From: Crossaster papposus | Lineage: Eukaryota; Echinodermata; Asteroidea; Velatida; Solasteridae | DNA length: 64,000 nt | NCBI GenBank assembly: GCA_037893245.1 | Contig: JBAIAA010000599.1 | Coordinates: forward strand, 372,001 to 436,000 | Reading direction: 5' to 3' | In this document: in pieces, positions 16,816-45,155 of the stretch | Position numbering within the stretch: the first letter of the stretch is position 1 | Layout: every line of letters begins with the position of its first letter | Position numbers and translations under genes: made by a program | The notes under the pieces: model-generated | The model's database searches: none | What the model saw: the letters and a program-made list of their open reading frames with translations, nothing else | Told to the model about the DNA's origin: nothing

Positions 16816-19800
16816 TCACTGTGCTGAGCAGAATAGTGAGTGTTCCCGTTACAGTGTGACTGAGAGCTCTCACTGTGCTGAGCAGAAGAGTGAGTGTTCC
16901 CATCACAGTGTGACTGAGAGCAGTCACTGTGCTGAGCAAAATAGTGAGTGTTCCCATCACAGTGTGACTGAGAGCAGTCACTGTGCTGAACAGAATAGTG
17001 AGTGTTCCAATCACAGTGTGACTGTGAGAGCATTCACTGTGCTGAGCAGAATAGTGAGTGTTCCCGTTACAGTGTGACTGAGAGCTCTCACTGTGCTGAG
17101 CAGAATAGTGAGTGTTCCCATCACAGTGTTACAGAGAGCAGTCACTGTGCTGAGCAGAATATTGAGTGTGCCCATCACAGTGTGACTATGAGAGCAGTCA
17201 CTGTGCTGAGCAGAATAGTGAGTGTTCACATCACAGTGCGACTGAGAGCAGTCACTGTGCTGAACAGAATAGTGAGTGTTCCAATCACAGTGTGACTGAG
17301 AGCAGTCACTGTGCAGAGCAGAATAGTGAGTGTTCCCATCACAGTGTGACTGCGAGAGCATTCACTTTGTTGAGCAAAATAGTGTGTTCCAATCACAGTA
17401 TGACTAAGAGCAGTCACTGTGCTGAACAGAATAGTGAGTGTTCCCATCACAGTGTGACTGCGAGAGCAGTCACTGTGCAGAGCAGAATAGTGAGTATTCC
17501 CATCACAGTGTTACAGAGAGCAGTCAATGTGCTGAGCAGAATAGCAAGTGTTCACATCACAGTGTGACTGAGAGCAGTCACTGTGCTGATCAGAATAGTG
17601 AGTGTTCACATCACTATGTGACTGAGAGCAGTCACTGTGCTGAGCAGAATAGTGAGTGTTCCCATCACAGTGTGACTGAGAGCAGTCACCTGGCTGAGCA
17701 GAATAGTGAGTGTTTCCATTGCAGTGTGACTGTGAGAGCAGTCACTGTGCTGAGCAGAATAGTGAATGTTCCCGCCACAGTGTGACAGAGAGCAGTCACT
17801 TCGAAAAACAAAATAGTGAGTGTTCCAATCACAGTGTGACTGAGAGCAGTCACTGTGCTGAACAGAATAGTGACTGTTCACATCACAGTGTGACTGAGAG
17901 CTGTCAATGTGCTGAGCAGAATAGTAAGTGTTCACAACACAGTGTGACTGAGAGCAGTCACTGTGCTGAGCAGAATAGTGAGTGTTCCCATCACAGTGTG
18001 ACTGAGAGCAGTCACTGTGCTGAACAGAATAGTGAGTGTTCCAATCACAGTGTGACTGAGAGCTGTCAATGTGCTGACCAGAATATTAAGTGTTCCCATC
18101 ACAGTGTGACTGCGAGAGCATTCACTTTGTTGAGCAAAATAGTAAGTGTTCACAACACAGTGTGACTGAGAGCAGTCACTGTGCTGAGCAGAATAGTGAG
18201 TGTTCCCATCACAGTGAGACTGAGAGCTGTCAATGTGCTGAGCAGAATAGTAAGTGTTCACAACACAGTGTGACTGAGAGCAGTCACTGTGCTGAGCAGA
18301 ATAGTGAGTGTTCCCATCACAGTGTGACTGAGAGCAGTCACTGTGCTGAACAGAATAGTGAGTGTTCCAATCACAGTGTGACTGAGAGCAGTCACTGTGC
18401 AGAGCAGAATAGTGAGTGTTCCCATCACAGTGTGACTGCGAGAGCATTCACTTTGTTGAGCAAAATAGTGTGTTCCAATCACAGTATGACTAAGAGCAGT
18501 CACTGTGCTGAACAGAATAGTGAGTGTTCCCATCACAGTGTGACTGCGAGAGCATTCACTGTGCAGAGCAGAATAGTGAGTATTCCCATCACAGTGTTAC
18601 AGAGAGTAGTCACTGTGCTGAGCAGAATAGTGAGTGTTCCCATCACAATGTGACTGTGAGAGCAGTCACTGTGCTGAGCAGAATAGTGAGTGTTCCCATC
18701 ACTGTGTGACTGTGAGAGCATTCGCTGTGCTGAGCAGAATAGTGAGTGTTCCCGTTACAGTGTGACTGAGAGCTCTCTCTGTGCTGAGCAAAATATTGAG
18801 TGTTCCCATCACAGTGTGACTGAGAGCAGTCACTGTGCTGAACAGAATAGTGAGTGTTCCCATCACAGTGTGACTGAGAGCTGTCATTGTGCTGAACAGA
18901 ATAGTGAGTGTTCCCACAACAGTGTGACTGAGAGCAGTCATTATGCTGAGCAGAATAGTGAGTGTTCCAATCACAGTATGGCTAAGAGCAGTCACTCTGC
19001 TGAGCAGAATATTGAGTGTTCCCATCACAGTGTGACTGAGAGCTATCGTTGTGCTGAACAGAATAGTGAGTGTTCCCACCACAGTGTGACTGAGAGCAGT
19101 CACTGTGCTGAGCAGAATAGTAAGTGTTCCCATCACAGTGTGACTGTGAGAGCATTCACTGTGCTGAGCAGAATAATGAGTGTTCCCGTCACAGTGTGAC
19201 TGAGAGCTCTCATTGTGCTGAGCAGAATAGTGAGTGTTCCCATCACAGTGTGACTGAGAGCAGTCACTGTGCTAAGCAAAATAGTGAGTGTTCCCATCAC
19301 AGTGTGAGTGAGAGCAGTCACTGTGCTGGACAGAATAGTGAGTGTTCCCATCACAGTGTGACTGAGAGCTGTCAATGTGCTGAGCAGAATAGTAAGTGTT
19401 CACATCACAGTGTGGCTGAGAGCAGTCACTGTGCTGAGCAGAATAGTGAGTGTTCCCATCACAGTGTGACTACAAGGGCATTCACTGTGCAGAGCAGAAT
19501 ACTGAGTGTTCCCTTCACAGTGTGACTGAGAGCAGTCACTGTGCTGAACATAATAGTGAGTGTTCCCATCACAGTGTGACTGTGAGAGCAGTCACTGTGC
19601 TGAGCAGAATAGTGAGTGTTCCCATCACAGTGTGACTGTGAGAGCATTCACTGTGCTGAGCAGAATAGTGAGTGTTCCCGTTACAGTGTGACTGAGAGCT
19701 CTCACTGTGCTGAGCAGAATAGTGAGTGTTCCCATCACAATGTGACTGTGAGAGCAGTCACTGTGCTGAGCAGAATAGTGAGTGTTCCCATCACAGTGTG

Positions 19801-22800
19801 ACTGTGAGAGCATTCACTGTGCTGAGCAGAATAGTGAGTGTTCCCGTTACAGTGTGACTGAGAGCTCTCACTGTGCTGAGCAGAAGAGTGAGTGTTCCCA
19901 TCACAGTGTGACTGAGGGCAGTCACTGTGCTGAGCAAAATAGTGAGTGTTCCCATCACAGTGTGACTGAGAGCAGTCACTGTGCTGAACGGAATAGTGAG
20001 TGTTCCAATCACAGTGTGACTGTGAGAGCATTCACTGTGCTGAGCAGAATAGTGAGTGTTCCCGTTACAGTGTGACTGAGAGCTCTCACTGTGCTGAGCA
20101 GAATAGTGAGTGTTCCCATCACAGTGTTACAGAGAGCAGTCACTGTGCTGAGCAGAATAGTGAGTGTGCCCATCACAGTGTGACTGAGAGCAGTCACTGT
20201 GCTGAACATAATAGTGAGTGTTCCCATCACAGTGTGACTGTGAGAGCAGTCACTGTGCTGAGCAGAATAGTGAGTGTTCCCATCACAGTGTGACTGTGAG
20301 AGCATTCACTGTGCTGAGCAGAATAGTGAGTGTTCCCGTTACAGTGTGACTGAGAGCTCTCACTGTGCTGAGCAGAAGAGTGAGTGTTCCCATCACAGTG
20401 TGACTGAGAGCAGTCACTGTGCTGAGCAAAATAGTGAGTGTTCCCATCACAGTGTGACTGAGAGCAGTCACTGTGCTGAACAGAATAGTGAGTGTTCCAA
20501 TCACAGTGTGACTGTGAGAGCATTCACTGTGCTGAGCAGAATAGTGAGTGTTCCCGTTACAGTGTGACTGAGAGCTCTCACTGTGCTGAGCAGAATAGTG
20601 AGTGTTCCCATCACAGTGTTACAGAGAGCAGTCACTGTGCTGAGCAGAATAGTGAGTGTGCCCATCACAGTGTGACTATGAGAGCAGTCACTGTGCTGAG
20701 CAGAATAGTGAGTGTTCACATCACAGTGCGACTGAGAGCAGTCACTGTGCTGAACAGAATAGTGAGTGTTCCAATCACAGTGTGACTGAGAGCAGTCACT
20801 GTGCAGAGCAGAATAGTGAGTGTTCCCATCACAGTGTGACTGCGAGAGCATTCACTTTGTTGAGCAAAATAGTGTGTTCCAGTCACAGTATGACTAAGAG
20901 CAGTCACTGTGCTGAACAGAATAGTGAGTGTTCCCATCACAGTGTGACTGCGAGAGCAGTCACTGTGCAGAGCAGAATAGTGAGTATTCCCATCACAGTG
21001 TTACAGAGAGCAGTCAATGTGCTGAGCAGAATAGCAAGTGTTCACATCACAGTGTGACTGAGAGCAGTCACTGTGCTGATCAGAATAGTGAGTGTTCACA
21101 TCACTATGTGACTGAGAGCTGTCATTGTGCTGAACAGAATAGTGAGTGTTCCCACAACAGTGTGACTGAGAGCAGTCATTATGCTGAGCAGAACAGTGAG
21201 TGTTCCAATCACAGTATGGCTAAGAGCAGTCACTCTGCTGAGCAGAATATTGAGTGTTCCCATCACAGTGTGACTGAGAGCTATCGTTGTGCTGAACAGA
21301 ATAGTGAGTGTTCCCACCACAGTGTGACTGAGAGCAGTCACTGTGCTGAGCAGAATAGTAAGTGTTCCCATCACAGTGTGACTGTGAGAGCATTCACTGT
21401 GCTGAGCAGAATAGTGAGTGTTCCCGTTACAGTGTGACTGAGAGCTCTCTCTGTGCTGAGCAAAATATTGAGTGTTCCCATCACAGTGTGACTGAGAGCA
21501 GTCACTGTGCTGAACAGAATAGTGAGTGTTCCCATCACAGTGTGACTGAGAGCTGTCATTGTGCTGAACAGAATAGTGAGTGTTCCCACAACAGTGTGAC
21601 TGAGAGCAGTCATTATGCTGAGCAGAATAGTGAGTGTTCCAATCACAGTATGGCTAAGAGCAGTCACTCTGCTGAGCAGAATATTGAGTGTTCCCATCAC
21701 AGTGTGACTGAGAGCTATCGTTGTGCTGAACAGAATAGTGAGTGTTCCCACCACAGTGTGACTGACAGCAGTCACTGTGCTGAGCAGAATAGTAAGTGTT
21801 CCCATCACAGTGTGACTGTGAGAGCATTCACTGTGCTTAGCAGAATAATGAGTGTTCCCGTCACAGTGTGACTGAGAGCTCTCATTGTGCTGAGCAGAAT
21901 AGTGAGTGTTCCCATCACAGTGTGACTGAGAGCAGTCACTGTGCTGAGCAAAATAGTGAGTGTTCCCATCACAGTGTGAGTGAGAGCAGTCACTGTGCTG
22001 GACAGAATAGTGAGTGTTCCCATCACAGTGTGACTGAGAGCTGTCAATGTGCTGAGCAGAATAGTAAGTGTTCACATCACAGTGTGGCTGAGAGCAGTCA
22101 CTGTGCTGAGCAGAATAGTGAGTGTTCCCATCACAGTGTGACTACGAGGGCATTCACTGTGCAGAGCAGAATAGTGAGTGTTCCCATCACAGTGTGACTG
22201 AGAGCAGTCACTGTGCAGAACATAATAGTGAGTGTTCCCATCACAGTGTGACTGCGAGAGCATTCACTGTGCAGAGCAGAATAGTGAGTGTTCCCATCAC
22301 AGTGTTACACAGAGCAGTCACTGTGCTGAGCAGAATAGTGAGTGTTCCCATCACAATGTGACTGTGAGAGCAGTCACTGTGCTGAGCAGAATAGTGAGTG
22401 TTCCCATCACAATGTGACTGTGAGAGCATTCACTGTGCTGAGCAGAATAGTGAGTGTTCCCGTTACAGTGTGACTGAGAGCTCTCACTGTGCTGAGCAGA
22501 AGAGTGAGTGTTCCCATCACAGTGTGACTGAGAGCAGTCACTGTGCTGAGCAAAATAGTGAGTGTTCCCATCACAGTGTGACTGAGAGCAGTCACTGTGT
22601 TGAACGGAATAGTGAGTGTTCCAATCACAGTGTGACTGTGAGAGCATTCACTGTGCTGAGCAGAATAGTGAGTGTTCCCGTTACAGTGTGACTGAGAGCT
22701 CTCACTGTGCTGAGCAGAATAGTGAGTGTTCCCATCACAGTGTTACAGAGAGCAGTCACTGTGCTGAGCAGAATAGTGAGTGTGCCCATCACAGTGTGAC

Positions 22801-25800
22801 TATGAGAGCAGTCACTGTGCTGAGCAGAATAGTGAGTGTTCACATCACAGTGCGACTGAGAGCAGTCACTGTGCTGAACAGAATAGTGAGTGTTCCAATC
22901 ACAGTGTGAGTGAGAGCAGTCACTGTGCAGAGCAGAATAGTGAGTGTTCCCATCACAGTGTGACTGCGAGAGCATTCACTTTGTTGAGCAAAATAGTGTG
23001 TTCCAGTCACAGTATGACTAAGAGCAGTCACTGTGCTGAACAGAATAGTGAGTGTTCCCATCACAGTGTGACTGCGAGAGCAGTCACTGTGCAGAGCAGA
23101 ATAGTGAGTATTCCCATCACAGTGTTACAGAGAGCAGTCAATGTGCTGAGCAGAATAGCAAGTGTTCACATCACAGTGTGACTGAGAGCAGTCACTGTGC
23201 TGATCAGAATAGTGAGTGTTCCCATCACAGTGTTACACAGAGCAGTCACTGTGCTGAGCAGAATAGTGAGTGTTCCCATCACAATGTGACTGTGAGAGCA
23301 GTCACTGTGCTGAGCAGAATAGTGAGTGTTCCCATCACAGTGTGACTGTGAGAGCATTCACTGTGCTGAGCAGAATAGTGAGTGTTCCCGTTACAGTGTG
23401 ACTGAGAGCTCTCACTGTGCTGAGCAGAAGAGTGAGTGTTCCCATCACAGTGTGACTGAGAGCAGTCACTGTGCTGAGCTAAATAGTGAGTGTTCCCATC
23501 ACAGTGTGATTGAGAGCAGTCACTGTGCTGAACAGAATAGTGAGTGTTCCAATCACAGTGTGACTGTGAGAGCATTCACTGTGCTGAGCAGAATAGTGAG
23601 TGTTCCCGTTACAGTGTGACTGAGAGCTCTCACTGTGCTGAGCAGAATAGTGAGTGTTCCCATCACAGTGTTACAGAGAGCAGTCACTGTGCTGAGCAGA
23701 ATAGTGAGTGTGCCCATCACAGTGTGACTATGAGAGCAGTCACTGTGCAGAGCAGAATAGTGAGTGTTCCCATCACAGTGTTACAGAGAGCAGTCAATGT
23801 GCTGAGCAGAATAGCAAGTGTTCACATCACAGTGTGACTGAGAGCAGTCACTGTGCTGATCAGAATAGTGAGTGTTCACATCACTATGTGACTGAGAGCT
23901 GTCATTGTGCTGAACAGAATAGTGAGTGTTCCCACAACAGTGTGACTGAGAGCAGTCATTATGCTGAGCAGAATAGTGAGTGTTCCAATCACAGTATGGC
24001 TAAGAGCAGTCACTCTGCTGAGCAGAATATTGAGTGTTCCCATCACAGTGTGACTGAGAGCTATCGTTGTGCTGAACAGAATAGTGAGTGTTCCCACCAC
24101 AGTGTGACTGAGAGCAGTCACTGTGCTGAGCAGAATAGTAAGTGTTCCCATCACAGTGTGACTGTGAGAGCATTCACTGTGCTGAGCAGAATAGTGAGTG
24201 TTCCCGTTACAGTGTGACTGAGAGCTCTCTCTGTGCTGAGCAAAATATTGAGTGTTCCCATCACAGTGTGACTGAGAGCAGTCACTGTGCTGAACAGAAT
24301 AGTGAGTGTTCCCATCACAGTGTGACTGAGAGCTGTCATTGTGCTGAACAGAATAGTGAGTGTTCCCACAACAGTGTGACTGAGAGCTGTCATTGTGCTG
24401 AACAGAATAGTGAGTGTTCCCACAACAGTGTGACTGAGAGCAGTCATTATGCTGAGCAGAATAGTGAGTGTTCCAATCACAGTATGGCTAAGAGCAGTCA
24501 CTCTGCTGAGCAGAATATTGAGTGTTCCCATCACAGTGTGACTGAGAGCTATCGTTGTGCTGAACAGAATAGTGAGTGTTCCCACCACAGTGTGACTGAG
24601 AGCAGTCACTGTGCTGAGCAGAATAGTAAGTGTTCCCATCACAGTGTGACTGTGAGAGCATTCACTGTGCTGAGCAGAATAATGAGTGTTCCCGTCACAG
24701 TGTGACTGAGAGCTCTCATTGTGCTGAGCAGAATAGTGAGTGTTCCCATCACAGTGTGACTGAGAGCAGTCACTGTGCTGAGCAAAATAGTGAGTGTTCC
24801 CATCACAGTGTGAGTGAGAGCAGTCACTGTGCTGGACAGAATAGTGAGTGTTCCCATCACAGTGTGACTGAGAGCTGTCAATGTGCTGAGCAGAATAGTA
24901 AGTGTTCACATCACAGTGTGGCTGAGAGCAGTCACTGTGCTGAGCAGAATAGTGAGTGTTCCCATCACAGTGTGACTACGAGGGCATTCACTGTGCAGAG
25001 CACAATAGTGAGTGTTCCCATCACAGTGTGACTGAGAGCAGTCACTGTGCTGAACATAATAGTGAGTGTTCCCATCACAGTGTGACTGCGAGAGCATTCA
25101 CTGTGCAGAGCAGAATAGTGAGTGTTTCCATCACAGTGTTACACAGAGCAGTCACTGTGCTGAGCAGAATAGTGAGTGTTCCCATCACAATGTGACTGTG
25201 AGAGCAGTCACTGTGCTGAGCAGAATAGTGAGTGTTCCCATCACAGTGTGACTGTGAGAGCATTCACTGTGCTGAGCAGAATAGTGAGTGTTCCCGTTAC
25301 AGTGTGACTGAGAGCTCTCACTGTGCTGAGCAGAAGAGTGAGTGTTCCCATCACAGTGTGACTGAGAGCAGTCACTGTGCTGAGCAAAATAGTGAGTGTT
25401 CCCATCACAGTGTGACTGAGAGCAGTCACTGTGCTGAACGGAATAGTGAGTGTTCCAATCACAGTGTGACTGTGAGAGCATTCACTGTGCTGAGCAGAAT
25501 AGTGAGTGTTCCCGTTACAGTGTGACTGAGAGCTCTCACTGTGCTGAGCAGAATAGTGAGTGTTCCCATCACAGTGTTACAGAGAGCAGTCACTGTGCTG
25601 AGCAGAATAGTGAGTGTGCCCATCACAGTGTGACTATGAGAGCAGTCACTGTGCTGAGCAGAATAGTGAGTGTTCACATCACAGTGCGACTGAGAGCAGT
25701 CACTGTGCTGAACAGAATAGTGAGTGTTCCAATCACAGTGTGACTGAGAGCAGTCACTGTGCAGAGCAGAATAGTGAGTGTTCCCATCACAGTGTGACTG

Positions 25801-28800
25801 CGAGAGCATTCACTTTGTTGAGCAAAATAGTGTGTTCCAGTCACAGTATGACTAAGAGCAGTCACTGTGCTGAACAGAATAGTGAGTGTTCCCATCACAG
25901 TGTGACTGCGAGAGCAGTCACTGTGCAGAGCAGAATAGTGAGTATTCCCATCACAGTGTTACAGAGAGCAGTCAATGTGCTGAGCAGAATAGCAAGTGTT
26001 CACATCACAGTGTGACTGAGAGCAGTCACTGTGCTGATCAGAATAGTGAGTGTTCCCATCACAGTGTTACACAGAGCAGTCACTGTGCTGAGCAGAATAG
26101 TGAGTGTTCCCATCACAATGTGACTGTGAGAGCAGTCACTGTGCTGAGCAGAATAGTGAGTGTTCCCATCACAGTGTGACTGTGAGAGCATTCACTGTGC
26201 TGAGCAGAATAGTGAGTGTTCCCGTTACAGTGTGACTGAGAGCTCTCACTGTGCTGAGCAGAAGAGTTTGTGTTCCCATCACAGTGTGACTGAGAGCAGT
26301 CACTGTGCTGAGCAAAATAGTGAGTGTTCCCATCACAGTGTGACTGAGAGCAGTCACTGTGCTGAACAGAATAGTGAGTGTTCCAATCACTGTGTGACTG
26401 TGAGAGCATTCACTGTGCTGAGCAGAATAGTGAGTGTTCCCGTTACAGTGTGACTGAGAGCTCTCACTGTGCTGAGCAGAATAGTGAGTGTTCCCATCAC
26501 AGTGTTACAGAGAGCAGTCACTGTGCTGAGCAGAATAGTGAGTGTGCCCATCACAGTGTGACTATGAGAGCAGTCACTGTGCTGAGCAGAATAGTGAGTG
26601 TTCACATCACAGTGCGACTGAGAGCAGTCACTGTGCTGAACAGAATAGTGAGTGTTCCAATCACAGTGTGACTGAGAGCAGTCACTGTGCAGAGCAGAAT
26701 AGTGAGTGTTCCCATCACAGTGTGACTGCGAGAGCATTCACTTTGTTGAGCAAAATAGTGTGTTCCAGTCACAGTATGACTAAGAGCAGTCACTGTGCTG
26801 AACAGAATAGTGAGTGTTCCCATCACAGTGTGACTGCGAGAGCAGTCACTGTGCAGAGCAGAATAGTGAGTATTCCCATCACAGTGTTACAGAGAGCAGT
26901 CAATGTGCTGAGCAGAATAGCAAGTGTTCACATCACAGTGTGACTGAGAGCAGTCACTGTGCTGATCAGAATAGTGAGTGTTCACATCACTATGTGACTG
27001 AGAGCTGTCATTGTGCTGAACAGAATAGTGAGTGTTCCCACAACAGTGTAACTGAGAGCAGTCATTATGCTGAGCAGAATAGTGAGTGTTCCAATCACAG
27101 TATGGCTAAGAGCAGTCACTCTGCTGAGCAGAATATTGAGTGTTCCCATCACAGTGTGACTGAGAGCTATCGTTGTGCTGAACAGAATAGTGAGTGTTCC
27201 CACCACAGTGTGACTGAGAGCAGTCACTGTGCTGAGCAGAATAGTGAGTGTTCCCGTTACAGTGTGACTGAGAGCTCTCTTTGTGCTGAGCAAAATATTG
27301 AGTGTTCCCATCACAGTGTGACTGAGAGCAGTCACTGTGCTGAACAGAATAGTGAGTGTTCCCATCACAGTGTGACTGAGAGCTGTCATTGTGCTGAACA
27401 GAATAGTGAGTGTTCCCACAACAGTGTGACTGAGAGCAGTCATTATGCTGAGCAGAATAGTGAGTGTTCCAATCACAGTATGGCTAAGAGCAGTCACTCT
27501 GCTGAGCAGAATATTGAGTGTTCCCATCACAGTGTGACTGAGAGCTATCGTTGTGCTGAACAGAATAGTGAGTGTTCCCACCACAGTGTGACTGAGAGCA
27601 GTCACTGTGCTGAGCAGAATAGTAAGTGTTCCCATCACAGTGTGACTGTGAGAGCATTCACTGTGCTGAGCAGAATAATGAGTGTTCCCGTCACAGTGTG
27701 ACTAAGAGCTCTCATTGTGCTGAGCAGAATAGTGAGTGTTCCCATCACAGTGTGACTGAGAGCAGTCACTGTGCTGAGCAAAATAGTGAGTGTTCCCATC
27801 ACAGTGTGAGTGAGAGCAGTCACTGTGCTGGACAGAATAGTGAGTGTTCCCATCACAGTGTGACTGAGAGCTGTCAATGTGCTGAGCAGAATAGTAAGTG
27901 TTCACATCACAGTGTGGCTGAGAGCAGTCACTGTGCTGAGCAGAATAGTGAGTGTTCCCATCACAGTGTGACTACGAGGGCATTCACTGTGCAGAGCAGA
28001 ATAGTGAGTGTTCCCATCACAGTGTGACTGAGAGCAGTCACTGTGCTGAACATAATAGTGAGTGTTCCCATCACAGTGTGACTGCGAGAGCATTCACTGT
28101 ACAGAGCAGAATAGTGAGTGTTCCCATCACAGTGTTACACAGAGCAGTCACTGTGCTGAGCAGAATAGTGAGTGTTCCCATCACAATGTGACTGTGAGAG
28201 CAGTCACTGTGCTGAGCAGAATAGTGAGTGTTCCCATCACAGTGTGACTGTGAGAGCATTCACTGTGCTGAGCAGAATAGTGAGTGTTCCCGTTACAGTG
28301 TGACTGAGAGCTCTCACTGTGCTGAGCAGAATAGTGAGTGTTCCCATCACAGTGTTACAGAGAGCAGTCACTGTGCTGAGCAGAATAGTGAGTGTGCCCA
28401 TCACAGTGTGACTATGAGAGCAGTCACTGTGCTGAGCAGAATAGTGAGTGTTCACATCACAGTGCGACTGAGAGCAGTCACTGTGCTGAACAGAATAGTG
28501 AGTGTTCCAATCACAGTGTGACTGAGAGCAGTCACTGTGCAGAGCAGAATAGTGAGTGTTCCCATCACAGTGTGACTGCGAGAGCATTCACTTTGTTGAG
28601 CAAAATAGTGTGTTCCAGTCACAGTATGACTAAGAGCAGTCACTGTGCTGAACAGAATAGTGAGTGTTCCCATCACAGTGTGACTGCGAGAGCAGTCACT
28701 GTGCAGAGCAGAATAGTGAGTATTCCCATCACAGTGTTACAGAGAGCAGTCAATGTGCTGAGCAGAATAGCAAGTGTTCACATCACAGTGTGACTGAGAG

Positions 28801-30985: not shown

Positions 30986-33900
30986 TCACTGTGCTGAGCA
31001 GAATAGTGAGTGTTCCCGTTACAGTGTGACTGAGAGCTCTCACTGTGCTGAGCAGAAGAGTGAGTGTTCCCATCACAGTGTGACTGAGAGCAGTCACTGT
31101 GCTGAGCAAAATAGTGAGTGTTCCCATCACAGTGTGACTGAGAGCAGTCACTGTGCTGAACAGAATAGTGAGTGTTCCAATCACAGTGTGACTGTGAGAG
31201 CATTCACTGTGCTGAGCAGAATAGTGAGTGTTCCCGTTACAGTGTGACTGAGAGCTCTCACTGTGCTGAGCAGAATAGTGAGTGTTCCCATCACAGTGTT
31301 ACAGAGAGCAGTCACTGTGCTGAGCAGAATATTGAGTGTGCCCATCACAGTGTGACTATGAGAGCAGTCACTGTGCTGAGCAGAATAGTGAGTGTTCACA
31401 TCACAGTGCGACTGAGAGCAGTCACTGTGCTGAACAGAATAGTGAGTGTTCCAATCACAGTGTGACTGAGAGCAGTCACTGTGCAGAGCAGAATAGTGAG
31501 TGTTCCCATCACAGTGTGACTGCGAGAGCATTCACTTTGTTGAGCAAAATAGTGTGTTCCAATCACAGTATGACTAAGAGCAGTCACTGTGCTGAACAGA
31601 ATAGTGAGTGTTCCCATCACAGTGTGACTGCGAGAGCAGTCACTGTGCAGAGCAGAATAGTGAGTATTCCCATCACAGTGTTACAGAGAGCAGTCAATGT
31701 GCTGAGCAGAATAGCAAGTGTTCACATCACAGTGTGACTGAGAGCAGTCACTGTGCTGATCAGAATAGTGAGTGTTCACATCACTATGTGACTGAGAGCA
31801 GTCACTGTGCTGAGCAGAATAGTGAGTGTTCCCATCACAGTGTGACTGAGAGCAGTCACCTGGCTGAGCAGAATAGTGAGTGTTTCCATTGCAGTGTGAC
31901 TGTGAGAGCAGTCACTGTGCTGAGCAGAATAGTGAATGTTCCCGCCACAGTGTGACAGAGAGCAGTCACTTCGAAAAACAAAATAGTGAGTGTTCCAATC
32001 ACAGTGTGACTGAGAGCAGTCACTGTGCTGAACAGAATAGTGACTGTTCACATCACAGTGTGACTGAGAGCTGTCAATGTGCTGAGCAGAATAGTAAGTG
32101 TTCACAACACAGTGTGACTGAGAGCAGTCACTGTGCTGAGCAGAATAGTGAGTGTTCCCATCACAGTGTGACTGAGAGCAGTCACTGTGCTGAACAGAAT
32201 AGTGAGTGTTCCAATCACAGTGTGACTGAGAGCTGTCAATGTGCTGACCAGAATATTAAGTGTTCCCATCACAGTGTGACTGCGAGAGCATTCACTTTGT
32301 TGAGCAAAATAGTAAGTGTTCACAACACAGTGTGACTGAGAGCAGTCACTGTGCTGAGCAGAATAGTGAGTGTTCCCATCACAGTGAGACTGAGAGCTGT
32401 CAATGTGCTGAGCAGAATAGTAAGTGTTCACAACACAGTGTGACTGAGAGCAGTCACTGTGCTGAGCAGAATAGTGAGTGTTCCCATCACAGTGTGACTG
32501 AGAGCAGTCACTGTGCTGAACAGAATAGTGAGTGTTCCAATCACAGTGTGACTGAGAGCAGTCACTGTGCAGAGCAGAATAGTGAGTGTTCCCATCACAG
32601 TGTGACTGCGAGAGCATTCACTTTGTTGAGCAAAATAGTGTGTTCCAATCACAGTATGACTAAGAGCAGTCACTGTGCTGAACAGAATAGTGAGTGTTCC
32701 CATCACAGTGTGACTGCGAGAGCATTCACTGTGCAGAGCAGAATAGTGAGTATTCCCATCACAGTGTTACAGAGAGTAGTCACTGTGCTGAGCAGAATAG
32801 TGAGTGTTCCCATCACAATGTGACTGTGAGAGCAGTCACTGTGCTGAGCAGAATAGTGAGTGTTCCCATCACTGTGTGACTGTGAGAGCATTCGCTGTGC
32901 TGAGCAGAATAGTGAGTGTTCCCGTTACAGTGTGACTGAGAGCTCTCTCTGTGCTGAGCAAAATATTGAGTGTTCCCATCACAGTGTGACTGAGAGCAGT
33001 CACTGTGCTGAACAGAATAGTGAGTGTTCCCATCACAGTGTGACTGAGAGCTGTCATTGTGCTGAACAGAATAGTGAGTGTTCCCACAACAGTGTGACTG
33101 AGAGCAGTCATTATGCTGAGCAGAATAGTGAGTGTTCCAATCACAGTATGGCTAAGAGCAGTCACTCTGCTGAGCAGAATATTGAGTGTTCCCATCACAG
33201 TGTGACTGAGAGCTATCGTTGTGCTGAACAGAATAGTGAGTGTTCCCACCACAGTGTGACTGAGAGCAGTCACTGTGCTGAGCAGAATAGTAAGTGTTCC
33301 CATCACAGTGTGACTGTGAGAGCATTCACTGTGCTGAGCAGAATAATGAGTGTTCCCGTCACAGTGTGACTGAGAGCTCTCATTGTGCTGAGCAGAATAG
33401 TGAGTGTTCCCATCACAGTGTGACTGAGAGCAGTCACTGTGCTAAGCAAAATAGTGAGTGTTCCCATCACAGTGTGAGTGAGAGCAGTCACTGTGCTGGA
33501 CAGAATAGTGAGTGTTCCCATCACAGTGTGACTGAGAGCTGTCAATGTGCTGAGCAGAATAGTAAGTGTTCACATCACAGTGTGGCTGAGAGCAGTCACT
33601 GTGCTGAGCAGAATAGTGAGTGTTCCCATCACAGTGTGACTACAAGGGCATTCACTGTGCAGAGCAGAATACTGAGTGTTCCCATCACAGTGTGACTGAG
33701 AGCAGTCACTGTGCTGAACATAATAGTGAGTGTTCCCATCACAGTGTGACTGTGAGAGCAGTCACTGTGCTGAGCAGAATAGTGAGTGTTCCCATCACAG
33801 TGTGACTGTGAGAGCATTCACTGTGCTGAGCAGAATAGTGAGTGTTCCCGTTACAGTGTGACTGAGAGCTCTCACTGTGCTGAGCAGAATAGTGAGTGTT

Positions 33901-36900
33901 CCCATCACAATGTGACTGTGAGAGCAGTCACTGTGCTGAGCAGAATAGTGAGTGTTCCCATCACAGTGTGACTGTGAGAGCATTCACTGTGCTGAGCAGA
34001 ATAGTGAGTGTTCCCGTTACAGTGTGACTGAGAGCTCTCACTGTGCTGAGCAGAAGAGTGAGTGTTCCCATCACAGTGTGACTGAGGGCAGTCACTGTGC
34101 TGAGCAAAATAGTGAGTGTTCCCATCACAGTGTGACTGAGAGCAGTCACTGTGCTGAACGGAATAGTGAGTGTTCCAATCACAGTGTGACTGTGAGAGCA
34201 TTCACTGTGCTGAGCAGAATAGTGAGTGTTCCCGTTACAGTGTGACTGAGAGCTCTCACTGTGCTGAGCAGAATAGTGAGTGTTCCCATCACAGTGTTAC
34301 AGAGAGCAGTCACTGTGCTGAGCAGAATAGTGAGTGTGCCCATCACAGTGTGACTGAGAGCAGTCACTGTGCTGAACATAATAGTGAGTGTTCCCATCAC
34401 AGTGTGACTGTGAGAGCAGTCACTGTGCTGAGCAGAATAGTGAGTGTTCCCATCACAGTGTGACTGTGAGAGCATTCACTGTGCTGAGCAGAATAGTGAG
34501 TGTTCCCGTTACAGTGTGACTGAGAGCTCTCACTGTGCTGAGCAGAAGAGTGAGTGTTCCCATCACAGTGTGACTGAGAGCAGTCACTGTGCTGAGCAAA
34601 ATAGTGAGTGTTCCCATCACAGTGTGACTGAGAGCAGTCACTGTGCTGAACAGAATAGTGAGTGTTCCAATCACAGTGTGACTGTGAGAGCATTCACTGT
34701 GCTGAGCAGAATAGTGAGTGTTCCCGTTACAGTGTGACTGAGAGCTCTCACTGTGCTGAGCAGAATAGTGAGTGTTCCCATCACAGTGTTACAGAGAGCA
34801 GTCACTGTGCTGAGCAGAATAGTGAGTGTGCCCATCACAGTGTGACTATGAGAGCAGTCACTGTGCTGAGCAGAATAGTGAGTGTTCACATCACAGTGCG
34901 ACTGAGAGCAGTCACTGTGCTGAACAGAATAGTGAGTGTTCCAATCACAGTGTGACTGAGAGCAGTCACTGTGCAGAGCAGAATAGTGAGTGTTCCCATC
35001 ACAGTGTGACTGCGAGAGCATTCACTTTGTTGAGCAAAATAGTGTGTTCCAGTCACAGTATGACTAAGAGCAGTCACTGTGCTGAACAGAATAGTGAGTG
35101 TTCCCATCACAGTGTGACTGCGAGAGCAGTCACTGTGCAGAGCAGAATAGTGAGTATTCCCATCACAGTGTTACAGAGAGCAGTCAATGTGCTGAGCAGA
35201 ATAGCAAGTGTTCACATCACAGTGTGACTGAGAGCAGTCACTGTGCTGATCAGAATAGTGAGTGTTCACATCACTATGTGACTGAGAGCTGTCATTGTGC
35301 TGAACAGAATAGTGAGTGTTCCCACAACAGTGTGACTGAGAGCAGTCATTATGCTGAGCAGAACAGTGAGTGTTCCAATCACAGTATGGCTAAGAGCAGT
35401 CACTCTGCTGAGCAGAATATTGAGTGTTCCCATCACAGTGTGACTGAGAGCTATCGTTGTGCTGAACAGAATAGTGAGTGTTCCCACCACAGTGTGACTG
35501 AGAGCAGTCACTGTGCTGAGCAGAATAGTAAGTGTTCCCATCACAGTGTGACTGTGAGAGCATTCACTGTGCTGAGCAGAATAGTGAGTGTTCCCGTTAC
35601 AGTGTGACTGAGAGCTCTCTCTGTGCTGAGCAAAATATTGAGTGTTCCCATCACAGTGTGACTGAGAGCAGTCACTGTGCTGAACAGAATAGTGAGTGTT
35701 CCCATCACAGTGTGACTGAGAGCTGTCATTGTGCTGAACAGAATAGTGAGTGTTCCCACAACAGTGTGACTGAGAGCAGTCATTATGCTGAGCAGAATAG
35801 TGAGTGTTCCAATCACAGTATGGCTAAGAGCAGTCACTCTGCTGAGCAGAATATTGAGTGTTCCCATCACAGTGTGACTGAGAGCTATCGTTGTGCTGAA
35901 CAGAATAGTGAGTGTTCCCACCACAGTGTGACTGACAGCAGTCACTGTGCTGAGCAGAATAGTAAGTGTTCCCATCACAGTGTGACTGTGAGAGCATTCA
36001 CTGTGCTTAGCAGAATAATGAGTGTTCCCGTCACAGTGTGACTGAGAGCTCTCATTGTGCTGAGCAGAATAGTGAGTGTTCCCATCACAGTGTGACTGAG
36101 AGCAGTCACTGTGCTGAGCAAAATAGTGAGTGTTCCCATCACAGTGTGAGTGAGAGCAGTCACTGTGCTGGACAGAATAGTGAGTGTTCCCATCACAGTG
36201 TGACTGAGAGCTGTCAATGTGCTGAGCAGAATAGTAAGTGTTCACATCACAGTGTGGCTGAGAGCAGTCACTGTGCTGAGCAGAATAGTGAGTGTTCCCA
36301 TCACAGTGTGACTACGAGGGCATTCACTGTGCAGAGCAGAATAGTGAGTGTTCCCATCACAGTGTGACTGAGAGCAGTCACTGTGCAGAACATAATAGTG
36401 AGTGTTCCCATCACAGTGTGACTGCGAGAGCATTCACTGTGCAGAGCAGAATAGTGAGTGTTCCCATCACAGTGTTACACAGAGCAGTCACTGTGCTGAG
36501 CAGAATAGTGAGTGTTCCCATCACAATGTGACTGTGAGAGCAGTCACTGTGCTGAGCAGAATAGTGAGTGTTCCCATCACAGTGTGACTGTGAGAGCATT
36601 CACTGTGCTGAGCAGAATAGTGAGTGTTCCCGTTACAGTGTGACTGAGAGCTCTCACTGTGCTGAGCAGAAGAGTGAGTGTTCCCATCACAGTGTGACTG
36701 AGAGCAGTCACTGTGCTGAGCAAAATAGTGAGTGTTCCCATCACAGTGTGACTGAGAGCAGTCACTGTGTTGAACGGAATAGTGAGTGTTCCAATCACAG
36801 TGTGACTGTGAGAGCATTCACTGTGCTGAGCAGAATAGTGAGTGTTCCCGTTACAGTGTGACTGAGAGCTCTCACTGTGCTGAGCAGAATAGTGAGTGTT

Positions 36901-39900
36901 CCCATCACAGTGTTACAGAGAGCAGTCACTGTGCTGAGCAGAATAGTGAGTGTGCCCATCACAGTGTGACTATGAGAGCAGTCACTGTGCTGAGCAGAAT
37001 AGTGAGTGTTCACATCACAGTGCGACTGAGAGCAGTCACTGTGCTGAACAGAATAGTGAGTGTTCCAATCACAGTGTGAGTGAGAGCAGTCACTGTGCAG
37101 AGCAGAATAGTGAGTGTTCCCATCACAGTGTGACTGCGAGAGCATTCACTTTGTTGAGCAAAATAGTGTGTTCCAGTCACAGTATGACTAAGAGCAGTCA
37201 CTGTGCTGAACAGAATAGTGAGTGTTCCCATCACAGTGTGACTGCGAGAGCAGTCACTGTGCAGAGCAGAATAGTGAGTATTCCCATCACAGTGTTACAG
37301 AGAGCAGTCAATGTGCTGAGCAGAATAGCAAGTGTTCACATCACAGTGTGACTGAGAGCAGTCACTGTGCTGATCAGAATAGTGAGTGTTCCCATCACAG
37401 TGTTACACAGAGCAGTCACTGTGCTGAGCAGAATAGTGAGTGTTCCCATCACAATGTGACTGTGAGAGCAGTCACTGTGCTGAGCAGAATAGTGAGTGTT
37501 CCCATCACAGTGTGACTGTGAGAGCATTCACTGTGCTGAGCAGAATAGTGAGTGTTCCCGTTACAGTGTGACTGAGAGCTCTCACTGTGCTGAGCAGAAG
37601 AGTGAGTGTTCCCATCACAGTGTGACTGAGAGCAGTCACTGTGCTGAGCTAAATAGTGAGTGTTCCCATCACAGTGTGATTGAGAGCAGTCACTGTGCTG
37701 AACAGAATAGTGAGTGTTCCAATCACAGTGTGACTGTGAGAGCATTCACTGTGCTGAGCAGAATAGTGAGTGTTCCCGTTACAGTGTGACTGAGAGCTCT
37801 CACTGTGCTGAGCAGAATAGTGAGTGTTCCCATCACAGTGTTACAGAGAGCAGTCACTGTGCTGAGCAGAATAGTGAGTGTGCCCATCACAGTGTGACTA
37901 TGAGAGCAGTCACTGTGCAGAGCAGAATAGTGAGTGTTCCCATCACAGTGTTACAGAGAGCAGTCAATGTGCTGAGCAGAATAGCAAGTGTTCACATCAC
38001 AGTGTGACTGAGAGCAGTCACTGTGCTGATCAGAATAGTGAGTGTTCACATCACTATGTGACTGAGAGCTGTCATTGTGCTGAACAGAATAGTGAGTGTT
38101 CCCACAACAGTGTGACTGAGAGCAGTCATTATGCTGAGCAGAATAGTGAGTGTTCCAATCACAGTATGGCTAAGAGCAGTCACTCTGCTGAGCAGAATAT
38201 TGAGTGTTCCCATCACAGTGTGACTGAGAGCTATCGTTGTGCTGAACAGAATAGTGAGTGTTCCCACCACAGTGTGACTGAGAGCAGTCACTGTGCTGAG
38301 CAGAATAGTAAGTGTTCCCATCACAGTGTGACTGTGAGAGCATTCACTGTGCTGAGCAGAATAGTGAGTGTTCCCGTTACAGTGTGACTGAGAGCTCTCT
38401 CTGTGCTGAGCAAAATATTGAGTGTTCCCATCACAGTGTGACTGAGAGCAGTCACTGTGCTGAACAGAATAGTGAGTGTTCCCATCACAGTGTGACTGAG
38501 AGCTGTCATTGTGCTGAACAGAATAGTGAGTGTTCCCACAACAGTGTGACTGAGAGCTGTCATTGTGCTGAACAGAATAGTGAGTGTTCCCACAACAGTG
38601 TGACTGAGAGCAGTCATTATGCTGAGCAGAATAGTGAGTGTTCCAATCACAGTATGGCTAAGAGCAGTCACTCTGCTGAGCAGAATATTGAGTGTTCCCA
38701 TCACAGTGTGACTGAGAGCTATCGTTGTGCTGAACAGAATAGTGAGTGTTCCCACCACAGTGTGACTGAGAGCAGTCACTGTGCTGAGCAGAATAGTAAG
38801 TGTTCCCATCACAGTGTGACTGTGAGAGCATTCACTGTGCTGAGCAGAATAATGAGTGTTCCCGTCACAGTGTGACTGAGAGCTCTCATTGTGCTGAGCA
38901 GAATAGTGAGTGTTCCCATCACAGTGTGACTGAGAGCAGTCACTGTGCTGAGCAAAATAGTGAGTGTTCCCATCACAGTGTGAGTGAGAGCAGTCACTGT
39001 GCTGGACAGAATAGTGAGTGTTCCCATCACAGTGTGACTGAGAGCTGTCAATGTGCTGAGCAGAATAGTAAGTGTTCACATCACAGTGTGGCTGAGAGCA
39101 GTCACTGTGCTGAGCAGAATAGTGAGTGTTCCCATCACAGTGTGACTACGAGGGCATTCACTGTGCAGAGCACAATAGTGAGTGTTCCCATCACAGTGTG
39201 ACTGAGAGCAGTCACTGTGCTGAACATAATAGTGAGTGTTCCCATCACAGTGTGACTGCGAGAGCATTCACTGTGCAGAGCAGAATAGTGAGTGTTTCCA
39301 TCACAGTGTTACACAGAGCAGTCACTGTGCTGAGCAGAATAGTGAGTGTTCCCATCACAATGTGACTGTGAGAGCAGTCACTGTGCTGAGCAGAATAGTG
39401 AGTGTTCCCATCACAGTGTGACTGTGAGAGCATTCACTGTGCTGAGCAGAATAGTGAGTGTTCCCGTTACAGTGTGACTGAGAGCTCTCACTGTGCTGAG
39501 CAGAAGAGTGAGTGTTCCCATCACAGTGTGACTGAGAGCAGTCACTGTGCTGAGCAAAATAGTGAGTGTTCCCATCACAGTGTGACTGAGAGCAGTCACT
39601 GTGCTGAACGGAATAGTGAGTGTTCCAATCACAGTGTGACTGTGAGAGCATTCACTGTGCTGAGCAGAATAGTGAGTGTTCCCGTTACAGTGTGACTGAG
39701 AGCTCTCACTGTGCTGAGCAGAATAGTGAGTGTTCCCATCACAGTGTTACAGAGAGCAGTCACTGTGCTGAGCAGAATAGTGAGTGTGCCCATCACAGTG
39801 TGACTATGAGAGCAGTCACTGTGCTGAGCAGAATAGTGAGTGTTCACATCACAGTGCGACTGAGAGCAGTCACTGTGCTGAACAGAATAGTGAGTGTTCC

Positions 39901-42900
39901 AATCACAGTGTGACTGAGAGCAGTCACTGTGCAGAGCAGAATAGTGAGTGTTCCCATCACAGTGTGACTGCGAGAGCATTCACTTTGTTGAGCAAAATAG
40001 TGTGTTCCAGTCACAGTATGACTAAGAGCAGTCACTGTGCTGAACAGAATAGTGAGTGTTCCCATCACAGTGTGACTGCGAGAGCAGTCACTGTGCAGAG
40101 CAGAATAGTGAGTATTCCCATCACAGTGTTACAGAGAGCAGTCAATGTGCTGAGCAGAATAGCAAGTGTTCACATCACAGTGTGACTGAGAGCAGTCACT
40201 GTGCTGATCAGAATAGTGAGTGTTCCCATCACAGTGTTACACAGAGCAGTCACTGTGCTGAGCAGAATAGTGAGTGTTCCCATCACAATGTGACTGTGAG
40301 AGCAGTCACTGTGCTGAGCAGAATAGTGAGTGTTCCCATCACAGTGTGACTGTGAGAGCATTCACTGTGCTGAGCAGAATAGTGAGTGTTCCCGTTACAG
40401 TGTGACTGAGAGCTCTCACTGTGCTGAGCAGAAGAGTTTGTGTTCCCATCACAGTGTGACTGAGAGCAGTCACTGTGCTGAGCAAAATAGTGAGTGTTCC
40501 CATCACAGTGTGACTGAGAGCAGTCACTGTGCTGAACAGAATAGTGAGTGTTCCAATCACTGTGTGACTGTGAGAGCATTCACTGTGCTGAGCAGAATAG
40601 TGAGTGTTCCCGTTACAGTGTGACTGAGAGCTCTCACTGTGCTGAGCAGAATAGTGAGTGTTCCCATCACAGTGTTACAGAGAGCAGTCACTGTGCTGAG
40701 CAGAATAGTGAGTGTGCCCATCACAGTGTGACTATGAGAGCAGTCACTGTGCTGAGCAGAATAGTGAGTGTTCACATCACAGTGCGACTGAGAGCAGTCA
40801 CTGTGCTGAACAGAATAGTGAGTGTTCCAATCACAGTGTGACTGAGAGCAGTCACTGTGCAGAGCAGAATAGTGAGTGTTCCCATCACAGTGTGACTGCG
40901 AGAGCATTCACTTTGTTGAGCAAAATAGTGTGTTCCAGTCACAGTATGACTAAGAGCAGTCACTGTGCTGAACAGAATAGTGAGTGTTCCCATCACAGTG
41001 TGACTGCGAGAGCAGTCACTGTGCAGAGCAGAATAGTGAGTATTCCCATCACAGTGTTACAGAGAGCAGTCAATGTGCTGAGCAGAATAGCAAGTGTTCA
41101 CATCACAGTGTGACTGAGAGCAGTCACTGTGCTGATCAGAATAGTGAGTGTTCACATCACTATGTGACTGAGAGCTGTCATTGTGCTGAACAGAATAGTG
41201 AGTGTTCCCACAACAGTGTAACTGAGAGCAGTCATTATGCTGAGCAGAATAGTGAGTGTTCCAATCACAGTATGGCTAAGAGCAGTCACTCTGCTGAGCA
41301 GAATATTGAGTGTTCCCATCACAGTGTGACTGAGAGCTATCGTTGTGCTGAACAGAATAGTGAGTGTTCCCACCACAGTGTGACTGAGAGCAGTCACTGT
41401 GCTGAGCAGAATAGTGAGTGTTCCCGTTACAGTGTGACTGAGAGCTCTCTTTGTGCTGAGCAAAATATTGAGTGTTCCCATCACAGTGTGACTGAGAGCA
41501 GTCACTGTGCTGAACAGAATAGTGAGTGTTCCCATCACAGTGTGACTGAGAGCTGTCATTGTGCTGAACAGAATAGTGAGTGTTCCCACAACAGTGTGAC
41601 TGAGAGCAGTCATTATGCTGAGCAGAATAGTGAGTGTTCCAATCACAGTATGGCTAAGAGCAGTCACTCTGCTGAGCAGAATATTGAGTGTTCCCATCAC
41701 AGTGTGACTGAGAGCTATCGTTGTGCTGAACAGAATAGTGAGTGTTCCCACCACAGTGTGACTGAGAGCAGTCACTGTGCTGAGCAGAATAGTAAGTGTT
41801 CCCATCACAGTGTGACTGTGAGAGCATTCACTGTGCTGAGCAGAATAATGAGTGTTCCCGTCACAGTGTGACTAAGAGCTCTCATTGTGCTGAGCAGAAT
41901 AGTGAGTGTTCCCATCACAGTGTGACTGAGAGCAGTCACTGTGCTGAGCAAAATAGTGAGTGTTCCCATCACAGTGTGAGTGAGAGCAGTCACTGTGCTG
42001 GACAGAATAGTGAGTGTTCCCATCACAGTGTGACTGAGAGCTGTCAATGTGCTGAGCAGAATAGTAAGTGTTCACATCACAGTGTGGCTGAGAGCAGTCA
42101 CTGTGCTGAGCAGAATAGTGAGTGTTCCCATCACAGTGTGACTACGAGGGCATTCACTGTGCAGAGCAGAATAGTGAGTGTTCCCATCACAGTGTGACTG
42201 AGAGCAGTCACTGTGCTGAACATAATAGTGAGTGTTCCCATCACAGTGTGACTGCGAGAGCATTCACTGTACAGAGCAGAATAGTGAGTGTTCCCATCAC
42301 AGTGTTACACAGAGCAGTCACTGTGCTGAGCAGAATAGTGAGTGTTCCCATCACAATGTGACTGTGAGAGCAGTCACTGTGCTGAGCAGAATAGTGAGTG
42401 TTCCCATCACAGTGTGACTGTGAGAGCATTCACTGTGCTGAGCAGAATAGTGAGTGTTCCCGTTACAGTGTGACTGAGAGCTCTCACTGTGCTGAGCAGA
42501 ATAGTGAGTGTTCCCATCACAGTGTTACAGAGAGCAGTCACTGTGCTGAGCAGAATAGTGAGTGTGCCCATCACAGTGTGACTATGAGAGCAGTCACTGT
42601 GCTGAGCAGAATAGTGAGTGTTCACATCACAGTGCGACTGAGAGCAGTCACTGTGCTGAACAGAATAGTGAGTGTTCCAATCACAGTGTGACTGAGAGCA
42701 GTCACTGTGCAGAGCAGAATAGTGAGTGTTCCCATCACAGTGTGACTGCGAGAGCATTCACTTTGTTGAGCAAAATAGTGTGTTCCAGTCACAGTATGAC
42801 TAAGAGCAGTCACTGTGCTGAACAGAATAGTGAGTGTTCCCATCACAGTGTGACTGCGAGAGCAGTCACTGTGCAGAGCAGAATAGTGAGTATTCCCATC

Positions 42901-45155
42901 ACAGTGTTACAGAGAGCAGTCAATGTGCTGAGCAGAATAGCAAGTGTTCACATCACAGTGTGACTGAGAGCAGTCACTGTGCTGATCAGAATAGTGAGTG
43001 TTCCCATCACAGTGTTACACAGAGCAGTCACTGTGCTGAGCAGAATAGTGAGTGTTCCCATCACAATGTGACTGTGAGAGCAGTCACTGTGCTGAGCAGA
43101 ATAGTGAGTGTTCCCATCACAGTGTGACTGTGAGAGCATTCACTGTGCTGAGCAGAATAGTGAGTGTTCCCGTTACAGTGTGACTGAGAGCTCTCACTGT
43201 GCTGAGCAGAAGAGTGAGTGTTCCCATCACAGTGTGACTGAGAGCAGTCACTGTGCTGAACAGAATAGTGAGTGTTCCAATCACAGTGTGACTGTGAGAG
43301 CATTCACTGTGCTGAGCAGAATAGTGAGTGTTCCCGTTACAGTGTGACTGAGAGCTCTCACTGTGCTGAGCAGAATAGTGAGTGTTCCCATCACAGTGTT
43401 ACAGAGAGCAGTCACTGTGCTGAGCAGAATAGTGAGTGTGCCCATCACAGTGTGGCTATGAGAGCAGTCACTGTGCTGAGCAGAATAGTGAGTGTTCACA
43501 TCACAGTGCGACTGAGAGCAGTCACTGTGCTGAACAGAATAGTGAGTGTTCCCATCACAGTGTGACTGCGAGAGCATTCACTTTGTTGAGCAAAATAGTG
43601 TGTTCCAGTCACAGTATGACTAAGAGCAGTCACTGTGCTGAACAGAATAGTGAGTGTTCCCATCACAGTGTGACTGCGAGAGCAGTCACTGTGCAGAGCA
43701 GAATAGTGAGTATTCCCATCACAGTGTTACAGAGAGCAGTCAATGTGCTGAGCAGAATAGCAAGTGTTCACATCACAGTGTGACTGAGAGCAGTCACTGT
43801 GCTGATCAGAATAGTGAGTGTTCACATCACTATGTGACTGAGAGCTGTCATTGTGCTGAACAGAATAGTGAGTGTTCCCACAACAGTGTGACTGAGAGCA
43901 GTCATTATGCTGAGCAGAATAGTGAGTGTTCCAATCACAGTATGGCTAAGAGCAGTCACTCTGCTGAGCAGAATATTGAGTGTTCCCATCACAGTGTGAC
44001 TGAGAGCTATCGTTGTGCTGAACAGAATAGTGAGTGTTCCCACCACAGTGTGACTGAGAGCAGTCACTGTGCTGAGCAGAATAGTAAGTGTTCCCATCAC
44101 AGTGTGACTGTGAGAGCATTCACTGTGCTAAGCAGAATAGTGAGTGTTCCCGTTACAGTGTGACTGAGAGCTCTCTCTGTGCTGAGCAAAATATTGAGTG
44201 TTCCCATCACAGTGTGACTGAGAGCAGTCACTGTGCTGAACAGAATAGTGAGTGTTCCCATCACAGTGTGACTGAGAGCTGTCATTGTGCTGAACAGAAT
44301 AGTGAGTGTTCCCACAACAGTGTGACTGAGAGCAGTCATTATGCTGAGCAGAATAGTGAGTGTTCCAATCACAGTATGGCTAAGAGCAGTCACTCTGCTG
44401 AGCAGAATATTGAGTGTTCCCATCACAGTGTGACTGAGAGCTATCGTTGTGCTGAACAGAATAGTGAGTGTTCCCACCACAGTGTGACTGAGAGCAGTCA
44501 CTGTGCTGAGCAGAATAGTAAGTGTTCCCATCACAGTGTGACTGTGAGAGCATTCACTGTGCTGAGCAGAATAATGAGTGTTCCCGTCACAGTGTGACTG
44601 AGAGCTCTCATTGTGCTGAGCAGAATAGTGAGTGTTCCCATCACAGTGTGACTGAGAGCAGTCACTGTGCTGAGCAAAATAGTGAGTGTTCCCATCACAG
44701 TGTGAGTGAGAGCAGTCACTGTGCTGGACAGAATAGTGAGTGTTCCCATCACAGTGTGACTGAGAGCTGTCAATGTGCTGAGCAGAATAGTAAGTGTTCA
44801 CATCACAGTGTGGCTGAGAGCAGTCACTGTGCTGAGCAGAATAGTGAGTGTTCCCATCACAGTGTGACTACGAGGACATTCACTGTGCAGAGCAGAATAG
44901 TGAGTGTTCCCATCACAGTGTGACTGAGAGCAGTCACTGTGCTGAACATAATAGTGAGTGTTCCCATCACAGTGTGACTGCGAGAGCATTCACTGTGCAG
45001 AGCAGAATAGTGAGTGTTCCCATCACAGTGTTACACAGAGCAGTCACTGTGCTGAGCAGAATAGTGAGTGTTCCCATCACAATGTGACTGTGAGAGCAGT
45101 CACTGTGCTGAGCAGAATAGTGAGTGTTCCCATCACAGTGTGACTGTGAGAGCAT
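30986..45155. repeat. 14,170-bp higher-order repeat, copy 2
   Basis: This is the second tandem copy, starting directly where copy 1 ends and carrying the same rare variants at +14,170. Examples are the ATTCGCTGTG monomer at 32,891, GAGGGCAGTC near 34,084, CTTAGCAG near 36,006, AGCACAATAG near 39,169, the doubled monomer at 38,489-38,596 and ACGAGGACATTC near 44,869. The period fades at its right end: from about 45,331 the sequence follows the module A/B version (CTGAACGGAATAG) rather than a third copy of D, and all 14,170-bp register ends at 45,948. Confidence 0.9.

Follow-up and report, generated by a model that had tools for sequence, protein, structure and literature searches.

A 14,170-bp tandem pair with two base differences, a probable recent duplication in a 54/56-bp satellite array of Crossaster papposus

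Introduction

Parts of a 2022 review (PMC8997354) describe unequal exchange and break-induced replication (BIR), and state that the first of these models, although long accepted, has come into question. In human alpha-satellite arrays, as described in parts of another study (PMC11062924), monomers are ~171 bp long and blocks of distinct monomers are copied together within tandem arrays of megabase scale. Clean, polarised recent duplications allow the mode of satellite growth, unequal exchange or BIR, to be asked about. The locus described here is a satellite array in which a block of 14,170 bp occurs twice in tandem; its breakpoints can be narrowed to a short zone, an outgroup copy is at hand, and two derived bases serve as markers. 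Judged on its sequence features, the pair is very probably a real, recent, single-event tandem duplication inside a megabase-scale satellite array.

Results

Organization of the satellite array

The window, i.e., the whole stretch of DNA analysed, comprises 64,000 nt of contig JBAIAA010000599.1 (hereafter C599; positions 372,001-436,000), which belongs to a genome assembly of 1.02 Gb in 1,841 contigs. In the mitochondrial cox1 of the assembly (contig C1841, 16,330 bp), Trp is encoded by TGA (13 TGA, no TGG). Six of the seven AAA codons stand at positions where Asn is usual (e.g., in GGFGNW and RMNNMSFW), and one stands at a Lys position (GKKEPFG), which is contrary evidence; on balance, the gene fits the echinoderm/flatworm mitochondrial code. 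C599:262,001-526,000 (264 kb, ~258 kb of which are array) was covered in full, and the extent of the satellite beyond it, on C599 and on the contig C117, was judged from sparse samples. Positions without a contig name are those of the window, in which the following segments were distinguished.

1-58,750, + strand: left part, in the window, of the 54/56-bp satellite array (TRF period 54, 87% matches)
58,751-60,899, no strand assigned: LTR-bearing insertion in the satellite, with LTRs of ~264 bp and ATAG on both sides
60,900-64,000, + strand: satellite resumes and runs past the window end (TRF; samples up to C599:1,190,200)

TRF placed the period-54 array at 1-58,752 and again at 60,899-63,997, and the consensus of the 54-bp unit is TCACAGTGTGACTGAGAGCAGTCACTGTGCTGAGCAGAATAGTGAGTGTTCCCA. 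The 87% matches between adjacent 54-bp units represent the background divergence of the array. Spacings of 54 bp account for 3,313 and spacings of 56 bp for 1,053 of the 4,545 anchor intervals found in the 264 kb, the satellite part of which has a single orientation throughout, as evidenced by the k-mer profile.

On C599, sparse samples place satellite from base 1, so that the contig begins inside the array, to a point between 1,190,200 and 1,200,001. Satellite was present in 18/18 samples of a first set, in 6/20 of a second set, the other 14 being position 258,001 plus positions from 1,200,001 on, and in 10/10 C599 samples of a third set. The array is interrupted by at least one island of other DNA, between 250,400 and ~267,600. 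A second array starts at ~C117:3,145,450; five of the eight C117 samples contain satellite (3.23-3.80 Mb) and three do not (4.0 Mb, 4.2 Mb and the contig end). Genome-wide, an exact satellite 39-mer occurs 10,228 times in forward and 315 times in reverse orientation, and extrapolation at the density of the 264-kb part gives a rough total of ~5.2 Mb of satellite. The array is satellite DNA: monomers are arranged head to tail over at least tens of kb, in one orientation, and occur in more than one genomic place. The exact 39-mer had no match in either of two sequence collections, viral_contigs and genome_contigs, a result of little weight since neither is a collection of animal genomes. No echinoderm 54-bp satellite was named in the titles or abstract openings of the papers matched in a literature search, and the satellite is not claimed to be unpublished.

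A coding function was considered and rejected. By eye, one reading frame of the consensus monomer is open, but 56-bp monomers shift the frame; no continuous open frame runs through the array, the longest satellite ORF in the window having 295 aa (translation table 11). In a Pfam scan of two satellite ORFs, one matched PF21009 (suprabasin GxHH repeat; 40.6 bits, cut-off 31) and the other matched PF09383 below the cut-off (22.3 versus 24 bits); both matches are probably compositional. Rfam gave no match at the gathering score in the window. The LTRs of the insertion align over 263 columns with one substitution and one gap, and a tandem pair of 2,182 bp has the uninterrupted insertion site in its second copy.

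Two copies of a 14,170-bp block

The following segments are relevant to the pair.

16,816-30,985, + strand: copy 1 of the 14,170-bp block, carrying both derived bases (19,514 T and 22,412 A; offset comparison and outgroup at -18,640)
30,986-45,155, + strand: copy 2 of the 14,170-bp block (33,684 A and 36,582 G; offset comparison)
799-7,671 (C599:372,799-379,671), + strand: older paralogous segment, used as outgroup (ungapped self-comparison)

The first-pass annotation had described two near-identical tandem copies of 14,170 bp that differ at two bases, and base-by-base alignment bears this out. At an offset of 14,170, positions 16,816-31,161 and 30,986-45,331 align over 14,346 bases without indels and differ by two substitutions, a level of identity far above the 87% background. 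The two sites already named, 19,514 T versus 33,684 A and 22,412 A versus 36,582 G, are the sole differences, and they divide the pair into exact runs of 8,749, 2,897 and 2,698 bp. Identity extends 176 bp past the right end of the block; the first mismatching positions are 16,815 (left) and 31,162 (right). As the length of the identical tract is close to the offset, the copies abut. The block consists of about 260 monomers, and its 251 anchor intervals include 78 distinct strings. Within the 264 kb, the array is not organized as a higher-order repeat, as the block has two copies at the locus and the other offsets vary widely.

The outgroup segment shows 19 mismatches in 6,873 bp to copy 1 (offset 18,640) and 17 mismatches to copy 2 (offset 32,810). 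At the two differing sites it has A and G, which makes copy 1 the carrier of both derived bases. The 19,514 T lies in a 41-mer that is found nowhere else in the 264 kb. The 22,412 A is a frequent variant in short context (its 31-mer is present 99 times in the 264 kb) and may derive from conversion of a short tract. If 1e-8 substitutions per base and generation are assumed, the two changes over 2 x 14,170 bp would date the duplication to ~7,100 generations ago (95% interval, about 860-25,500), an estimate that varies inversely with the assumed rate.

Other duplications in the array

In the self-comparison, exact matches of 300 bp or longer served as seeds and were extended without gaps (3,280 diagonals), and the resulting segments were kept when they reached 800 bp (1,781 segments). 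Segments were called tandem when their length reached the offset. This criterion misses duplications broken by indels or insertions, such as the 2,182-bp pair that the LTR insertion interrupts. In the 258 kb of array covered in full, 30 ungapped tandem pairs were identified, with 23 distinct offsets ranging from 816 to 14,170 bp. The 14,170-bp pair is the largest; the next offsets are 3,927, 3,104, 3,004, 2,775 and 2,556 bp. No exact repeat in the 264 kb is longer than its 8,749-bp run, and the next unrelated one measures 4,127 bp. Exact second copies were found for 9/14 of the 2-kb tiles inside the pair versus 4/114 outside, and for 23/28 versus 41/229 of the 1-kb tiles.

Near-perfection is not limited to this pair, as five tandem pairs of 984-2,584 bp have no mismatch. 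The earlier statement that module copies elsewhere in the window differ far more holds only in part, as a 1,966-bp exact pair (56,787-58,752; offset 4,335) and further pairs of 0.8-1.8 kb are found in the window. Older and larger paralogies are present as well, for example, besides the outgroup comparison at offset 18,640, segments of 6,514 bp (offset 9,089) and 6,080 bp (offset 13,056), with 19 mismatches each. Gapped repeat chains were rejected as duplication events because chaining was too permissive; they serve only to suggest that older repeats of ~10 kb may be present at C599:275-305 kb. The array thus holds layers of differing age, among which the 14,170-bp duplication appears to be a young and large one.

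A comparable tandem pair of ~12.9 kb is present on C117 (3,189,350-3,202,304 versus 3,202,288-3,214,860). Its copies show 1 mismatch in 4,974 bp and 5 in 7,602 bp (6/12,576), one gap of ~380 bp, and a breakpoint overlap of 17 bp. The C117 pair is not called older, since the difference from the C599 pair (2/14,346) is not significant (p 0.16).

Breakpoints of the pair

The edges of the two copies are marked by three paralogous zones.

16,816-16,991, + strand: P1, left edge paralogue of the exchange zone, identical to 30,986-31,161 and inside a wider 855-bp ungapped paralogy
30,986-31,161, + strand: P2, junction zone, 176 bp identical in P1, P2 and P3 (diagnostic sites)
45,156-45,331, + strand: P3, right edge paralogue of the exchange zone (offset comparison, diagnostic sites)

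On its left side, the 176-bp zone is flanked in P2 by the diagnostic bases of P3 (G, T; P1 has A, G), and on its right side by those of P1 (A, T, A; P3 has G, G, G). A junction that is P3-like on the left and P1-like on the right is expected of any tandem duplication, and what is informative is the length of the homology and its register. Within the 855-bp paralogous stretch that contains the zone, P1 and P3 show five differences. All three boundaries fall at monomer phase 43 (of the 56-bp unit). Exact runs of at least 176 bp were found in 1.9% of 30,000 random in-phase pairs taken 180-360 anchor intervals apart, and in 1.3% of 18,096 random pairs under a fixed-phase null. Thus, the copies of the 14,170-bp pair abut, monomer phase is kept and breakpoint identity is above random, as in out-of-register exchange; identity, adjacency, phase and breakpoint homology are all directly observed. 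Counts in the 264 kb are 10 for the 195-bp junction haplotype, 8 for that of P1 and 4 for that of P3. Since such mosaics are common in the array, the crossover site is located only under a single-event model.

Breakpoint statistics were computed with one pair per offset (n=23), which drops 7/30 rows, including a 69-bp zone at offset 924. The median breakpoint identity over the 23 offsets is 20 bp versus a null median of 16, a modest excess (p 0.008-0.009, or 0.04 without null zeros). Four zones are long (140, 176, 200 and 317 bp) and belong to the three largest ungapped pairs (3.1, 3.9 and 14.2 kb) and to one 1.0-kb pair; at the other 19/23 offsets, identity is 0-28 bp, near the in-phase background. 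Long breakpoint homology is therefore not general in the arrays: smaller pairs mostly have ~20 bp, and the large C117 pair has 17 bp.

Discussion

Out-of-register homologous recombination within the array, either unequal sister exchange or BIR, would account for the pair. Such an exchange would have laid down the 14,170-bp block twice, and copy 1 would subsequently have gained its two substitutions. From the features of the pair we infer a recombination pathway, an age and the absence of an assembly fault. Duplication is a known process of satellite growth, and this case is ordinary but unusually clean and caught early. A similar process has operated elsewhere, as seen in the 30 ungapped tandem pairs of the C599 part and in the ~12.9-kb pair on C117. 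The first-pass annotation had left the choice between duplication or conversion and an assembly artefact; on sequence grounds, duplication is favoured, conversion is disfavoured and an artefact is less likely.

A sub-case that overlaps with this explanation is that the block was copied by BIR, i.e., by one-sided restart behind a stalled fork, and not by reciprocal exchange. We regard it as a tentative possibility, somewhat less probable than not. Parts of the 2022 review present a BIR model for nested satellite structures less easily explained by unequal exchange (PMC8997354), many duplications of the array have short breakpoint identity, and the monomers contain an imperfect inverted repeat (DNA folding of three monomers gave z-scores of -1.28, -2.68 and -1.08, only one of them clearly beyond shuffles). 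However, the breakpoint identity of the 14,170-bp pair is long, and one duplicated product cannot discriminate BIR from reciprocal exchange. As a separate candidate, hairpin-driven expansion was rejected, these z-scores being too weak.

A related and rather doubtful suggestion is that the array records two duplication classes, long-homology exchange and short-homology restart, both building one satellite. If true, the 14,170-bp duplication would be a datable example of the long-homology class. The C117 pair, with its 17 bp of identity, breaks a simple size rule for two such classes.

An assembly artefact, in which one block was walked twice or two haplotypes of a single block were strung in tandem, is unlikely. 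In its favour are the near-identity of the copies, the known difficulty of satellites for assemblers, as noted in parts of the HiCanu paper (PMC7545148), and the position of the first base of C599 within satellite. Yet even a false repeat needs a molecule that carries the junction of block end and block start, where the shared identity is only 176 bp (855 bp with five differences), which would be little for a spurious overlap, and the two differences between the copies are substitutions, not homopolymer length changes. Neighbouring markers in each copy are linked over 2,699, 2,898 and 8,750 bp, so that even the longest link would fit within the HiFi fragments of up to 25 kbp reported in the same paper, if reads of that type were used for this assembly. 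The need for real adjacency at the junction, the marker links of at most 8,750 bp and the comparable pair in the C117 array make an artefact less likely. Conversely, a true copy number above two that was collapsed to two would be as possible as a false second copy.

It is highly improbable that gene conversion homogenised two older 14-kb blocks that were already in tandem. The array does contain conversion-like mosaics, and the diagnostic combinations of the junction occur at several places, but the converted tract would have to span 14.3 kb or more and, by coincidence, to match the block length to within 176 bp, whereas a single duplication accounts for this without any coincidence. Duplication is favoured over conversion because the identical tract (14,346 bp) is close to the offset (14,170 bp) and ends in monomer phase. 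The least probable alternative, a 14,170-bp extrachromosomal circle of the array that was re-inserted or co-assembled, would produce a tandem copy that abuts in phase and has the same junction, but there is no independent sign of a circle, only circles roughly as abundant as the chromosome would be expected to enter a contig, and the copies carry different bases.

The recent tandem duplication favoured here can be compared with three described situations. As in the unequal-exchange model (Smith 1976, as presented in parts of PMC8997354), the C599 array features an in-phase multi-monomer duplication between near-identical stretches, and layers of age. In contrast to that model, most of the smaller C599 events have ~20 bp of breakpoint identity, and a reciprocal deletion is not visible in one assembly. 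False duplications and collapsed repeats in assemblies, as described in parts of PMC7545148, would have the same appearance in a contig as the C599 pair; here, however, junction identity is short and markers are at most 8,750 bp apart, which lowers the probability of a false join. Human alpha-satellite higher-order repeat arrays, to judge from the parts of PMC11062924 cited above, are similar in their megabase scale and in the copying of blocks of distinct monomers together. They differ in having monomers of ~171 bp, versus 54/56 bp in the C599 array, and a regular high-copy higher-order unit, whereas the C599 block is present in two copies only.

An LTR-bearing insertion in a duplicated satellite segment

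Near the right end of the window, the satellite, a tandem array of 54/56-bp monomers, contains an exact tandem duplication that is interrupted by an insertion bearing long terminal repeats (LTRs):

56787-58750 plus 60904-61185, versus 61122-63085 and on: exact tandem duplication with a period of 2,182 bp, interrupted by the LTR insertion
58751-60899: LTR-bearing insertion of ~2.15 kb within the satellite

To the left of the insertion, the two copies align at an offset (the distance between matching positions) of 4,335 over 1,964 bp, with 0 mismatches. To the right, they match exactly over 282 bp at an offset of 2,182. Because the second copy lacks the insertion, the LTR element most likely arrived after the 2,182-bp duplication.

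The inserted sequence appears to be a young LTR element of a non-autonomous kind. The LTRs, ~264 bp each, differ from one another by 1 substitution and 1 gap, and ATAG flanks the insertion on both sides. The interior contains tandem repeats of the CAGTCGCAG type and a 15-bp AAATTGTTGTAATGT array, and a Pfam search of its 394-aa open frame at a threshold of 0.001 returned 0 matches.

Other tandem blocks of the satellite

A second large and recent tandem duplication of the same satellite, of ~12.9 kb, is found in a separate array on another contig (C117:3,189,350-3,214,860; loci L068-L070), and its copies feature 6 mismatches over 12,576 aligned bp, plus one gap of ~380 bp. On C599, the contig containing the window, repeats at 275-305 kb (loci L010-L013), chained permissively, span 21 kb at offsets of ~8.5-10.4 kb, which suggests an older block in about three tandem copies.

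Other DNA is also embedded in the C599 satellite:

C599:322,652-324,197 (locus L015): truncated non-LTR retroelement-like insertion of ~1.5 kb, terminating in an ATT-repeat tail
C599: about 258,000-267,600, left bound approximate (loci L053, L009): island of ordinary AT-rich DNA, with satellite on either side

cox1-family frames on contig C8

In addition to the mitochondrial cox1 on contig C1841, uninterrupted cox1-family frames of 682, 331 and 274 aa are present on contig C8 of the same assembly (G000):

C8:5,208,663-5,210,009 and C8:2,872,001-2,873,343: cox1-family frames

C8 may represent a bacterial symbiont or a contaminant within the assembly.
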